A DNA stretch of 64,000 bases from Alistipes sp. (GTDB lineage: Bacteria > Bacteroidota > Bacteroidia > Bacteroidales > Rikenellaceae): assembly GCA_021201825.1 (NCBI GenBank), contig JAJQED010000004.1:62001-126000 (forward strand), written 5' to 3'. The notes under the pieces were generated by a model. That model saw nothing but the letters and a program-made list of their open reading frames with translations, was not told the DNA's origin and did not search any database. This document shows, one piece after another, positions 31,006-46,746 of the stretch (position 1 is its first letter; the number at the start of each line of letters is the position of its first letter). The translations under genes and the position numbers were made by a program.

Positions 31006-31121
31006 AATGAGTCCGGACCACAGGCAAGGCTTTCCCTGTCCGGTGCCAATAAAAAAGTTCTGCTTATATAGCAGAACTTTTTTTATCTGGCAAGCCTTGC
31101 CAAGTGTTCCTGGGACTCATT
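31006..31121. repeat. 116-bp fold-back element with an embedded bidirectional terminator
   Basis: Outer arms AATGAGTCC / GGACTCATT, inner arms GGCAAGGCTT / AAGCCTTGCC, and a central stem AAAAAAGTTCTGCT / AGCAGAACTTTTTT (31051-31083, loop TATAT). The full left arm and the reverse complement of the right arm are nearly the same over about 33-35 bases. The central stem is an intrinsic terminator on either strand for the preceding lipoprotein gene. Confidence 0.75.
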
Positions 31122-31204: not shown

Positions 31205-31393
31205 ATGAGACGGTTTTTAAAAATTATGTTCGTCGCCATTTTAGTGGCGGTGATCTCAAGAGAAAACATAATTACGAACCTTGTTCTATTATGGTTCTTT
31301 AGCAATGTGCTTTACATCTTTCTAAGGTCACTTACAAAAGTGGCCTTCTTTGTTCTCAAAACAGTAGTAATATACGGTATAATCTTTCTTTAG
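31205..31393 (+). CDS. Small hydrophobic membrane protein, 62 aa
   Basis: 62 aa, almost entirely hydrophobic: two membrane segments (about residues 6-19 and 23-60 with a short break at LRSLTK). The ATG follows a weak AAGCTT leader. No family recognised. It sits between the fold-back terminator and the 113-bp repeat array, and its stop lies at the border of the array. Could be a genuine small membrane protein or chance. Confidence 0.45.
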   Translation: MRRFLKIMFVAILVAVISRENIITNLVLLWFFSNVLYIFLRSLTKVAFFVLKTVVIYGIIFL

Positions 31394-31400
31394 CTCAAAA

Positions 31401-31853
31401 TATAAAAACTTAATGTTAAGTGTGATCACGAAACCAAACAGCAATGTTAAAAAGCTCTAAAACGGCCATATCAATATAAACCTGAATGAAAAAATCGAAG
31501 TTAAATAGCTCATTATAAAAACTTAATGTCATGTGTGATCACGAAACCAAACAGCCGGTGTAAAACAGCTCTAAAATGGCCATATTAATATAAACCTGAA
31601 TGAAAAAATCGAAGTTAAAAGCTCGTTATAAAAACTTAATGTCATGTATGATCACGAAACCAAAAAGCCGGTGTAAAACAGCTCTAAAACGGCCATATCA
31701 ATATAAACCTGGATGAAAAAATCGAAGTTAAATATCTCATTATTAAATCTTAATGTTATGTGTGATCACGAAAACAAACAGGCTGTATTAAAACGAGCCG
31801 AAAACGGCTATACCAATATAACACTTATTGAAAAAGTCGGAGATAAATGGCTG
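31401..31853 (+). repeat. 113-bp tandem repeat array derived from the 5' end of the next gene
   Basis: Three degenerate direct repeats begin at 31401, 31514 and 31627 (113, 113 and 114 bp). A fourth copy begins at 31741 and is the intact start of the gene at 31758. Each unit shares TAAAAACTTAATGT, the palindrome GTGATCAC with GAAACCAAACAG (third copy TGATCAC), AACGGCCATATCAATATAAACC and GAAAAAATCGAAGTTAAA. In copies 2 and 3 the start codon is kept but a stop follows after about 10 codons (MCDHETKQPV). Confidence 0.85.
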
Positions 31854-31931
31854 GTAGAAATAAACGGAAGCGGCAACCAAACCGAAGTTTACGAAGATGA
31901 ATTCATTGTCGAAGATTATGAACTACGTTAA
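31758..31931 (+). CDS. Small acidic protein, 57 aa (parent of the repeat array)
   Basis: 57 aa from the ATG at 31758 (MCDHENKQAVLKRAENGYTN); the track ORF starts 15 codons earlier within repeat unit 3, but homology of the repeats starts at this ATG. Predicted small beta-rich protein (ITLIEKVGDKWLVEINGSGN) with an acidic end. No family recognised. Followed by a terminator hairpin. Its first ~95 bases are reproduced three times upstream as broken copies. Confidence 0.6.
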   Translation: MCDHENKQAVLKRAENGYTNITLIEKVGDKWLVEINGSGNQTEVYEDEFIVEDYELR

Positions 31932-31978
31932 TTAAGCCAGAAATACCTAAAACACAAAAAGTAAAAAATAATCGGATA

Positions 31979-32008
31979 CAGCGGCCATTTATGGCTGCTG
32001 TTTTCATT
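31979..32008 (+). terminator. Terminator after the 57-aa gene
   Basis: Stem CAGCGGCCAT / ATGGCTGCTG (one G-U pair, TT loop) at 31979-32000 followed by TTTTCATTT. Confidence 0.75.
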
Positions 32009-32460: not shown

Positions 32461-33294
32461 ATGAAGCGTAAAAAACTTGTTATATCGTTTTCAGGAGGTC
32501 TATCGTCGGCATATATGACAAAGCGCCTCTTGGAAATTACGAGCCGTGATGAATGGGAAATAGCCGTCGTGTTCGCTAATACCGGAAAAGAAAGGGAAGA
32601 GACATTACAATTTATTTCAGACTGCGATAACTATTTCGGATTCAATACGGCATGGGTCGAAGCAGTCATAAATCCGCAAGCCGGCAAAGGCACCCGCCAC
32701 AAAATAGTCAACTATGATACGGCTTATCGTAACGGGGAACCTTTCGAGCAGATGATTCGCAAGTACGGACTGCCTAATATCAGGTGCAAACAATGTACAC
32801 GAGAGTTAAAGGTAAATGCGATACGATCCTATGCGAAATATACACTCGGCTGGAAGAAGTTCTACACAGCTATCGGAATAAGAGCCGATGAAGCCCAAAG
32901 GATAAGTTCGAAACGTGATGAACTTCTCTACCTCTATCCGATGGTGCATGACTTCCCGACAATCAGGCAGGATGTAAATATTTTCTGGAGTGTTCAACCT
33001 TTCACCCTTAATCTTAAGAGTTATCAAGGAAACTGCGATCTATGTTTCGAAAAGTCAGAACGTAAACTTATAACTCTTTGCCATGAAAAACCGCATATGG
33101 CGAACTGGTGGCTGGAAATGGAACGTAGGTATTCACATTATATCTCACCGGGAAAGACAAAGCAACTTGAATTACCGCTTATGTTTTTCAGGCAAAAACG
33201 TAGTATAGCCTACTTCTTGGCAAAAGCAGAACGGGGTGATTTTATCCCTGCTGCCGACGAAAGTAAAATATTAAGCCATACAAGATCATTATAG
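32461..33294 (+). CDS. PP-loop ATPase, phosphoadenosine phosphosulfate reductase-like
   Basis: 277 aa from the ATG at 32461, 2 bp after the preceding stop; the longer track start overlaps that gene. PP-loop motif SFSGGLSSAYM at residues 8-18, then VVFANTGKEREET and paired cysteine motifs RCKQCTRELK and GNCDLCFEKSERK. This is the PAPS reductase/adenine nucleotide alpha-hydrolase superfamily as found on mobile elements, not the sulfate-assimilation enzyme. The Cys pairs could bind an Fe-S cluster or zinc. DndC-like DNA sulfur modification is not supported because no dnd partners are present. Confidence 0.75.
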   Translation: MKRKKLVISFSGGLSSAYMTKRLLEITSRDEWEIAVVFANTGKEREETLQFISDCDNYFGFNTAWVEAVINPQAGKGTRHKIVNYDTAYRNGEPFEQMIRKYGLPNIRCKQCTRELKVNAIRSYAKYTLGWKKFYTAIGIRADEAQRISSKRDELLYLYPMVHDFPTIRQDVNIFWSVQPFTLNLKSYQGNCDLCFEKSERKLITLCHEKPHMANWWLEMERRYSHYISPGKTKQLELPLMFFRQKRSIAYFLAKAERGDFIPAADESKILSHTRSL

Positions 33295-33332
33295 AAGAGA
33301 TTATTCAAGAGGATAGGTTATTTAGTTCACGG

Positions 33333-33360
33333 GCACCCGATAACGGGTGCTTTTTCATTT
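33333..33360 (+). terminator. Terminator after the PP-loop gene
   Basis: GCACCCG-ATAA-CGGGTGC followed by TTTTTCATTTT, 39 bp after the stop codon. Confidence 0.85.
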
Positions 33361-33378
33361 TAATTAAACTTCAAAATT

Positions 33379-34170
33379 ATGTCATACGAATCGAGAAAAA
33401 ACAGGGCGGAAAGGTTCCGCAACCTTGCTTACAAAGCAAAAGACAAATCAAATGCAGCTTATGAACAGTCCAATAAAGCGGTATCGGGGATTCCGATGGG
33501 CCAACCAATACTCGTGGGCCATCATTCGGAAAAGAGGCACAGGGCGGCCCTAAAACGCAGTCATAATGCAATGGACATATCTGTCGAAGAGGCAGGTAAG
33601 GCTGATTATTACGAAAGGAAGGCTCATGCCGCGGAAAACAATAAGGCAATTTACAATGATGATCCAGATGCAGTGAATAAGCTTAAAGAAAAACTTGCCA
33701 ACCTGGAAACATTACAAGAGCACATGAAAGCGGCAAATAAGATATTTAAAAACAGGAAACTATCCCGTGAAGAGAAGATCGAAAAAGTTGCGGCGCTGAA
33801 AATTTCACGGCCAGAAGCAGAGTCAATGCTGGAGGGTGATTCTTGCGGAAGTATTGGATATGCCAGTTTTGAACTCGCGAACAACAACGCTAATATTCAA
33901 ACAACCCGTAAACGGCTTGAAGAGGTTATGTCACTCGGGCAAAGGGAATACAAGGAGTATCAGATCAACGGATATAAAGTGTGCGAGGACCCAAAAGATG
34001 ACCGGTTTAGAATTTTCTTCGGATTTAAACCGGATGAGGAGATCCGCAAACAACTCAAATCATCCGGGTATCGGTGGTCGCCATCAAATCAGGCATGGCA
34101 GGCAAGCCTCAAACCACTATATATTGACATGGGTAAGGCTATACTCGAATCTATGCCTACAAAAGAATAG
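33379..34170 (+). CDS. DUF3560 family protein
   Basis: 263 aa. N-terminal coiled region with the family signature GIPMGQPILVGHHSEKRHR at about residues 38-56, then helical repeats. C-terminal 65 residues (FFGFKPDEEIRKQLKSSGYRWSPSNQAWQ) form a small domain also seen in antirestriction-like and N-terminal primase-like proteins. DUF3560 proteins are frequent on Bacteroides conjugative elements. Function unknown. Lies between two terminator-like hairpins, so probably transcribed alone. Confidence 0.8.
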   Translation: MSYESRKNRAERFRNLAYKAKDKSNAAYEQSNKAVSGIPMGQPILVGHHSEKRHRAALKRSHNAMDISVEEAGKADYYERKAHAAENNKAIYNDDPDAVNKLKEKLANLETLQEHMKAANKIFKNRKLSREEKIEKVAALKISRPEAESMLEGDSCGSIGYASFELANNNANIQTTRKRLEEVMSLGQREYKEYQINGYKVCEDPKDDRFRIFFGFKPDEEIRKQLKSSGYRWSPSNQAWQASLKPLYIDMGKAILESMPTKE

Positions 34171-36479: not shown

Positions 36480-37691
36480 TTAGGCAAAGAGTTTTTTAAG
36501 ACTATCCATGTCCCGTTTGATCCCATTATCCATGACTTTAGCGTAATGCTGCGTCATCCTAATATCGGAGTGCCCCAACATTCGTGCAACATTTTCCACC
36601 GAAACGCCGTTATTCAGACACACAACAGTCGCGTAGGTATGTCTGGCAGTATGAGTGGTCAGCTTCTTATTTATCTCACAGAAATCAGCTATCTCTTTTA
36701 GATAAGAATTCATCTTTTGATTACTCGTAACAGGCAGAAGTTTATCGGTTCCGCATATTTTAGGGTGGTTACGGTATTTCTCAAGTATTCTTTGCGGAAT
36801 CGGAAGCAGTGGAATGTCACACATATTTTTGGTTTTATCTCGGGTCTTCCTAATCCAAAGATCGCCTTGTCCGTCCTTAGTAATATGGTGGGCACGGAGG
36901 TTATCGACATCAGTGTAAGCTAAGCCAGTAAAGCAGCAGAAAATGAAGACATCCCTTACATATTCAAGCCGTTCGAGTTTCAAATCTTTATTGATAACTC
37001 TGTTTATTTCATCTATCGTTAAAACTTCCTTTATAACTTCATTCTGCTTAAATTTAATTCCGACAAAAGGATCTTTGCGCATCCAGTCATTTGCGAGTGC
37101 AAGATTGATTATCTTCTTGAAGCATTTCATATACCTGACAACGGTGTTTTGGGCGCACTTACGTTTAGTTTTCAGGAATAGTTCGAAATGCCTGACCAGT
37201 TCTCCATTTATTTCATTGAATGATATATCATCTTTCTTGTAATACTTGAGTATTACTTCCTGTAAATACTTACAAGTATTTCTGTATCTGCAAACTGTTA
37301 TCTTAACATAATCCTGTCCGATTAGCTGCTCCATCTTTTCTATTTCAGCTTTGAAAGTTGCAATGAATAGCCTTTGTTCTGTAAGATTAAAAAGAGATTC
37401 GAGTATCAAGCGGGCAGAGTAGTGAGAGCCACTTAGCTGATATTCCTTTTGTATCGTGAGAGCACGAAGCCTAAGGTCATTTAGGTAATCATTAAGCTCT
37501 TTACTTTGTTTGTCTTTCCCTTTGGATTGCTGTAATCGTGGGTCCCAGAGTTTTTCCGGGATACTTCTTTTGATTTTAGCTTCTGCTCGTATACCACCCA
37601 AAGTTAGCCTGATTACAATGGGTGCTTCTCCGTTTTTCAGTAATCTTGCTTTAATAATCAAAAACAGCACATTAAAATCATGTCGATTCAT
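36480..37691 (-). CDS. int: Tyrosine-type site-specific integrase of the ICE
   Basis: 403 aa from MNRHDFNVLF at 37691; the longer ORF adds 37 codons of non-conserved sequence. An arm-binding N-domain, core-binding domain and catalytic domain are present. Catalytic box II THTARHTYATVV, then LGHSDIRMTQHY with the Tyr nucleophile. The box I position reads CFTGLAYTDV, with Ala where most recombinases have Arg; a similar loss of the first Arg is known for IntDOT. Lies 250 bp from the 3' end of tRNA-Phe, its likely target. Confidence 0.92.
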   Translation of the reverse strand: MNRHDFNVLFLIIKARLLKNGEAPIVIRLTLGGIRAEAKIKRSIPEKLWDPRLQQSKGKDKQSKELNDYLNDLRLRALTIQKEYQLSGSHYSARLILESLFNLTEQRLFIATFKAEIEKMEQLIGQDYVKITVCRYRNTCKYLQEVILKYYKKDDISFNEINGELVRHFELFLKTKRKCAQNTVVRYMKCFKKIINLALANDWMRKDPFVGIKFKQNEVIKEVLTIDEINRVINKDLKLERLEYVRDVFIFCCFTGLAYTDVDNLRAHHITKDGQGDLWIRKTRDKTKNMCDIPLLPIPQRILEKYRNHPKICGTDKLLPVTSNQKMNSYLKEIADFCEINKKLTTHTARHTYATVVCLNNGVSVENVARMLGHSDIRMTQHYAKVMDNGIKRDMDSLKKLFA

Positions 37692-37875
37692 ACCGTTAAT
37701 TTTAGAGGTTAAAGATACATTTACGGCACTATTCGAAGCGTTTGTAAAGCACTGCATTTCAGAGCAAAACCCTCGTAAAAGGTTGCTTTTTTTGGGCCTC
37801 AAAAAAAAGCAACCGAATTTGCATTCTTTTAATGCTTAAAAATGCATTATTTCACGGGTGGGGTAAAAAGAAAAA

Positions 37876-37938: not shown

Positions 37939-38013
<75 letters not shown>

Positions 38014-45375: not shown

Positions 45376-46583
45376 TTACAGCAGATTCTTCATCGCCTCG
45401 TCAATCTGCGAGTTTTCAAAGCTGTCGAGGTAATATTGGGTGACTTTCTCGGAACTGTGGCCTAATGATTCACATATTATAGAAGTCGATACACCTGACC
45501 TTTTCAAAACGGTCGCGTAAGAGTGGCGAGCAACATAGGTAGTTAAGTCAATCGGTATTCCCAACTCTTTCCCGACTTCTTTTAGATATTTATTCACTTT
45601 AGTAATGACTTTGTGAATGCGGTTTCGCTGCTGTATCTCCGTCTTGTGAAATGAAGAAAGTATAGGAAAGATATAATCCTCATCATCGTAAAAGGGGCTT
45701 ATGTACCTTTCAATGATTTCTACTGCTCTAGGTTGCAACGGTAGGCGAATCAATTTACCAGTCTTTTGGCGAGGATAGACAAGTCGGTTATCCACGAGGT
45801 TTGCACCTCTCAAATGCGCCATATCCACGAAATTAATCCCTGCCATATAATAGGAGAAAGCAAACAGATCAATAGCAAGGCGAGTGTATTTATGTTCCGT
45901 TTCGTAGTTTACAATCTTTATAATATCATCTTTCGATACTGACCGCTTTGCTGTTGCTTGGCTCAATTTAGATACCTTGTAGGCCTTGAAAGGGTAGTAT
46001 TCTGCTTTGACAATGTTTTGCTCGATAGCCAAATTGAAAACTGCTCGAAGTGTGCGAAATCTTTTGCCTGTGGTATTCTCGGCAGAGCCACCCGACCGCA
46101 ACCAATTTTCATAGCGTTTTAGCCATGCTGTGTCAATATCGGAGAAATAAATATCCAGATGCCCGTTGAATTTTTTGAGTGAATTGTAGACCTCTAAATG
46201 CGACATTGCATATCCTGTCCGCTTTTGCTCTTTTAGGGATTTGATTTGAGCGAGAAATAAATCGCCGACGGTCTTTTTACGGACAGGGTTAATTAGTCGC
46301 TCATGCAGAGAAGTGGCGGTGAAATCCTTATTTTCGGCTTGCAATTCGATAATCTTTGACCGATACGCTTTGATTTTGTCGGCCATAATCCGTTCGATAT
46401 TTACCCGATTCGGGCAGTTTCTACGGGTTTGTTCTTCTCGAAATCCCAGAATGCGGGATTAACGGAAACTCCGATACTTGAATACTTTAGCTTACGGTCT
46501 TTTGTGATTCGGAGCATTAATGGGGATTCATTGTTTGCCAATACTTTAGACTTGTAACAAACGACTTCGATAGTTACGCTCAT
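45376..46583 (-). pseudogene. int: Tyrosine integrase of the second island, frameshifted
   Basis: The 60-aa ORF at 46401-46583 (MSVTIEVVCYKSKVLANNES) is the arm-binding N-terminus, and the 336-aa ORF at 45376-46386 is the rest. Restoring one base near 46415 joins ...FEKNKP to RNCPNRVNIERIMADK, the sequence expected for this family. Catalytic features remain: DLTTYVARHSYATVLKRSGV, ESLGHSSEKVTQYY and the Tyr. The gene lies 90 bp from the 3' end of tRNA-Phe copy 2. As it stands the full integrase cannot be made unless the ribosome shifts frame. Confidence 0.85.

Positions 46584-46671: not shown

Positions 46672-46746
<75 letters not shown>

Follow-up and report, generated by a model that had tools for sequence, protein, structure and literature searches.

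Our analysis makes it very probable that a private partial duplication of a gene, since decayed neutrally, left behind the tandem array at positions 31401-31852. The array belongs to a mobile element from a Bacteroidales bacterium of gut type and was studied within a window of 64,000 nucleotides, the whole stretch of DNA analysed here. Its units run head-to-tail and are similar to the start of the adjacent intact gene, which encodes a protein of 57 amino acids and whose 5′ end forms the fourth and last unit. We regard the array as ordinary DNA wear and tear, and nothing that we found suggests that the copies do anything.

The array and the adjacent gene

Tandem Repeats Finder describes the array as 4.0 copies with a period of 113, 87% matches and a score of 648, which makes it the strongest tandem repeat of the window (the runner-up array scores 48). 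At a lag of 113, 107 of 113 positions are identical in the best 113-nt stretch, compared with 54-55 in block-shuffled windows, and successive units are spaced by about 113, 113 and 114 bases. The array is non-random, and these three measurements bear out the 113-bp period and the unit coordinates claimed in an earlier, sequence-only reading of this DNA. A sample of 206 kb, on which the background rate of arrays was gauged, holds three arrays with a period of at least 30, and this one is the largest. An assembly duplicate was considered as the source of the array and ruled out because the copies differ among themselves. Another repeat, of 61 bp in two copies, is present in the same genome (L074:10508-10627).

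All units lie on the forward strand, and their alignment shows a common stretch that extends from ~20 nt 5′ of the ATG to ~95 nt inside the coding sequence, in agreement with the ~95 coding bases that the sequence-only reading had attributed to the units and the gene start alike. Copy 1 (31391-31505) has AAG in the position of the ATG, and thus no start codon, along with small indels of its own. Copy 2 (31506-31618) retains an ATG at 31531, which opens a 10-codon mini-ORF encoding MCDHETKQPV and a stop (31531-31563), and copy 3 (31619-31732) retains one at 31644, where the mini-ORF encodes MYDHETKKPV and a stop (31644-31676). The earlier claim that both copies keep a start codon and the peptide MCDHETKQPV is therefore right about the start codons and about copy 2, but not about the peptide of copy 3. 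The fourth, intact unit (31733-31852) comprises the 5′ flank and the first ~95 nt of the small gene MCDHENKQAVLKRAENGYTNITLIEKVGDKWLVEINGSGNQTEVYEDEFIVEDYELR, which runs on the forward strand from the ATG at 31758 to a stop at 31931. An in-frame ATG at 31713, inside decayed copy 3, would lengthen this gene by 15 residues (31713-31757). Sequence comparison with the homologues argues against a start at this position; gene callers may pick it and so give the protein an artificial N-terminus of that length. By a consensus scan only, terminator-like hairpins were placed 3′ of the small gene (31978-32001) and 5′ of the array (31324-31347, within a doubtful 62-aa ORF at 31205-31393), both on the forward strand. 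After the DUF4906 gene, a perfect 14-bp hairpin with a T-rich tail (31051-31083) is nested in a 13-bp inverted repeat (31023-31101).

We found ~35 homologues of the 57-aa protein in Bacteroidales chromosomes, plasmids and phage-like contigs, all of them distant, at no more than about 62% protein identity. The nearest are L027, from an Alistipes MAG (60%), and L028, from Odoribacter (62% over the core). Members of this unnamed family, which includes the gene at 31758-31931 as well as L027, L028, L038 and L050, are 46-60 aa long with the core GYxxIELIEKxGYKWLVRICGSGxEIEVYEDEF. No Pfam or NCBIfam model describes the protein, its weak Pfam match being to the Myosin_N SH3-like domain, and a sequence search of the PDB returned nothing significant. 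AlphaFold2, run on an alignment of 20 homologues, predicts a five-stranded barrel with a pLDDT of 80, and the Foldseek matches of this model are SH3-like barrels (PWWP, KOW, Tudor and myosin N-terminal), none of them at E ≤ 0.001. The protein is thus predicted to be an SH3-like barrel. The repeated unit corresponds to residues 1 to ~32 and ends inside strand 3 of the five predicted strands; because it would cut the barrel at this point, we infer that no single unit could make a working protein.

Conservation among the copies

Alignment of the units revealed that copies 1-3 have in common a 1-bp frame-breaking deletion that leads to a TAA after codon 10, the same stops and 24 consensus substitutions relative to the gene. 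Compared pairwise, the three copies differ at only 7-12 sites, with copies 2 and 3 the closest pair and copy 1 standing furthest apart. Since the lesions are common to all three, decay of a single duplicate must have preceded its multiplication. A different source for the decayed units would be another homologue of the small gene, a diverged one that was recombined in and then amplified. Divergence from the gene is greater in the unit's 3′ part than in its 5′ part, as such a source would predict, but units and gene are nearly alike in the 5′ flank and at the poorly conserved N-terminal residues MCDHE.K, and these residues, which are not common to other homologues, point to the neighbouring gene. 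We give a diverged homologue only the slimmest of chances and favor a duplicate of the neighbouring gene that has decayed.

The copies are without coding constraint. Differences between the gene and the copy consensus are distributed 5/9/6 over the three codon positions, with no third-position excess, and 6 of the 20 are synonymous, compared with ~4 expected without constraint. Tyr18 and Trp31, both invariant in 23 homologues, have not been kept: Trp31 is replaced by a stop in copies 1 and 2, and its equivalent is lost in copy 3. The sequence-only reading had proposed comparing the conservation of the mini-ORFs with that of a palindrome in the unit, and neither turned out to be less changed than the rest among the copies; the 43-nt part that holds the start codon, mini-ORF and palindrome changes from copy to copy as often as the remainder does (Fisher p 0.37-1.0). 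A weak counter-signal comes from the comparison with the gene, from which the copies differ at 4 of the first 43 nt of the unit and at 21 of the remaining 70 (Fisher p = 0.011 for copy 2, 0.037 for copy 1 and 0.12 for copy 3). Local exchange between units would explain this low 5′ divergence, but so could chance or a constraint on the start region.

Leader-peptide and operator readings

The first of three options put forward in the sequence-only reading was that of repeated leader peptides, in which the mini-ORFs of copies 2 and 3 would be translated and, through attenuation or translational coupling, would regulate the gene that follows. In both copies an AT-rich stretch resembling that of the gene precedes the ATG, which opens a frame of ten codons up to a TAA, and in B. 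thetaiotaomicron long 5′ UTRs that contain short ORFs have been observed (PMC7366714). However, the ATG has been lost in copy 1, and 2 of the 10 mini-ORF codons differ between copies 2 and 3, both non-synonymously. Folding against shuffles revealed no stable or alternative RNA structure 5′ of the gene, the units and the array folding no better than the shuffled sequences (z-scores of +0.56, +1.37 and +0.64 for the units and +0.20 for the array). Rfam at permissive thresholds returned chance matches only, with no attenuator among them, and no array lies 5′ of any scanned homologue. Taken together, these data make leader peptides a very unlikely explanation. The Bacteroidales −7 motif, with the consensus TAnnTTTG (PMC7366714), does not occur in the array.

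The second option was a multi-site operator, in which GTGATCAC palindromes 113 bp apart would be recognized by a regulator. This regulator could be the 57-aa SH3-like protein itself, which would amount to autoregulation. The observation behind it was accurate: TGATCAC is intact in all four units and GTGATCAC is present in three, with copy 3 carrying ATGATCAC in its place. GTGATCAC is also over-represented in the window (4 occurrences versus 0.54 expected), although three of these four are the array itself. The palindrome, however, coincides with codons 2-4 of the small gene, and it is absent from L027 and L038/L048, the two homologues that can be aligned through the N-terminus and in which the corresponding codons differ. 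The invariant 11-nt run of the array, TGATCACGAAA, includes the palindrome, but when the invariant columns are permuted a longest run of at least 11 arises with P = 0.35, and the run is therefore unremarkable, at chance level for the divergence of the array. With the site also altered in copy 3, an operator strikes us as highly improbable, and a regulatory role of the units is unsupported. A further reading, to which we assign very little probability, is that the units have been retained because, by titration, they draw ribosomes or a regulator away from the downstream SH3-like gene, or towards it. Were this true, the array would be a regulatory one built by multiplying the gene's own start region.

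Distribution and genomic context

A search for the same array in related elements, also suggested by the sequence-only reading, did not recover it. Relatives of the element's integrase within the family (50-56% identity) have different cargo beside the integrase, with neither the small gene nor such an array, and no comparable tandem array is found near the gene at the homologous loci scanned among the ~35 distant homologues. DNA searches detected nothing array-like in 267 related genomes of the host family, in plasmids or in viral contigs, and no second copy of the array in its own genome. No relative of the small gene above about 62% identity, and hence no single-copy ancestor, emerged from our searches, and the 144-aa downstream protein, used as an anchor, had no relatives in the genome contigs searched. 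Our reading of the literature found no description of such an array.

Identical 75-bp stretches at 37939-38013 and 46672-46746, each with a complete tRNA-Phe gene, flank an 8.7-kb segment that contains a tyrosine recombinase of its own (45376-46386) as well as a Dam-like methylase and a ParB-like gene. The first of these tRNA-Phe copies marks the end of the conjugative element whose integrase lies at 36480-37802, and the locus resembles a pair of elements stacked at a single tRNA site. Element cargo at 32461-34170 includes a PAPS-reductase-like protein beside a DUF3560 protein; the former has no relative in the 267 genomes of the family.

Origin of the array

We favor a model that begins with the head-to-tail duplication of ~113 bp, from ~20 bp before the ATG to ~95 bp inside the 57-aa gene. 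Read off the alignment, the unit junction and the gene's own flank have only ~2 bases of homology, which suggests that replication slippage, or illegitimate exchange guided by very short homology, was probably responsible for this first step. Lacking the gene's second half and unable to make the protein, the upstream duplicate then decayed through the 1-bp deletion, the stops and the substitutions at conserved codons. Subsequent multiplication of the decayed unit gave three copies, presumably through slippage or unequal exchange between what were now long repeats, the later steps of amplification being able to draw on 113-bp homology, and the three decayed copies have since drifted apart. The intact downstream gene would be the sole functional part of the array region. 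Of the options raised by the sequence-only reading, the last, a duplication series under decay, is the one that our data uphold, through the common frameshift and stops, the lack of codon-position bias, the loss of conserved residues, the absence of an array from every homologous locus scanned and the lack of RNA structure.

The array matters little beyond annotation. It illustrates the decay and later expansion of a short tandem duplication within a mobile element. A small by-product is that an unnamed family of small proteins, predicted to be SH3-like, has been recognized across Bacteroidales plasmids, phage-like contigs and chromosomes.

Comparison with known systems

Leader-peptide attenuation involves upstream ORFs of the erm or tna type. 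The array is reminiscent of these systems in having short ORFs 5′ of a gene, but its start codon and codons have not been kept, alternative hairpins are lacking and relatives have no counterpart. Iteron or operator arrays are composed of repeats with palindromic sites, and each repeated unit here similarly holds a short palindrome. Unlike in those arrays, the palindrome is parental coding sequence, is altered in one copy, is conserved at chance level and is missing from alignable homologues. Partial tandem duplication through replication slippage or unequal exchange, with later decay into pseudogene fragments, corresponds to the array in its head-to-tail units of constant length, its truncated coding sequence, the common frameshift and stops, the lack of coding constraint and the intact parent at one end; the array departs from this pattern only in that here the decayed fragment has been amplified to three copies.
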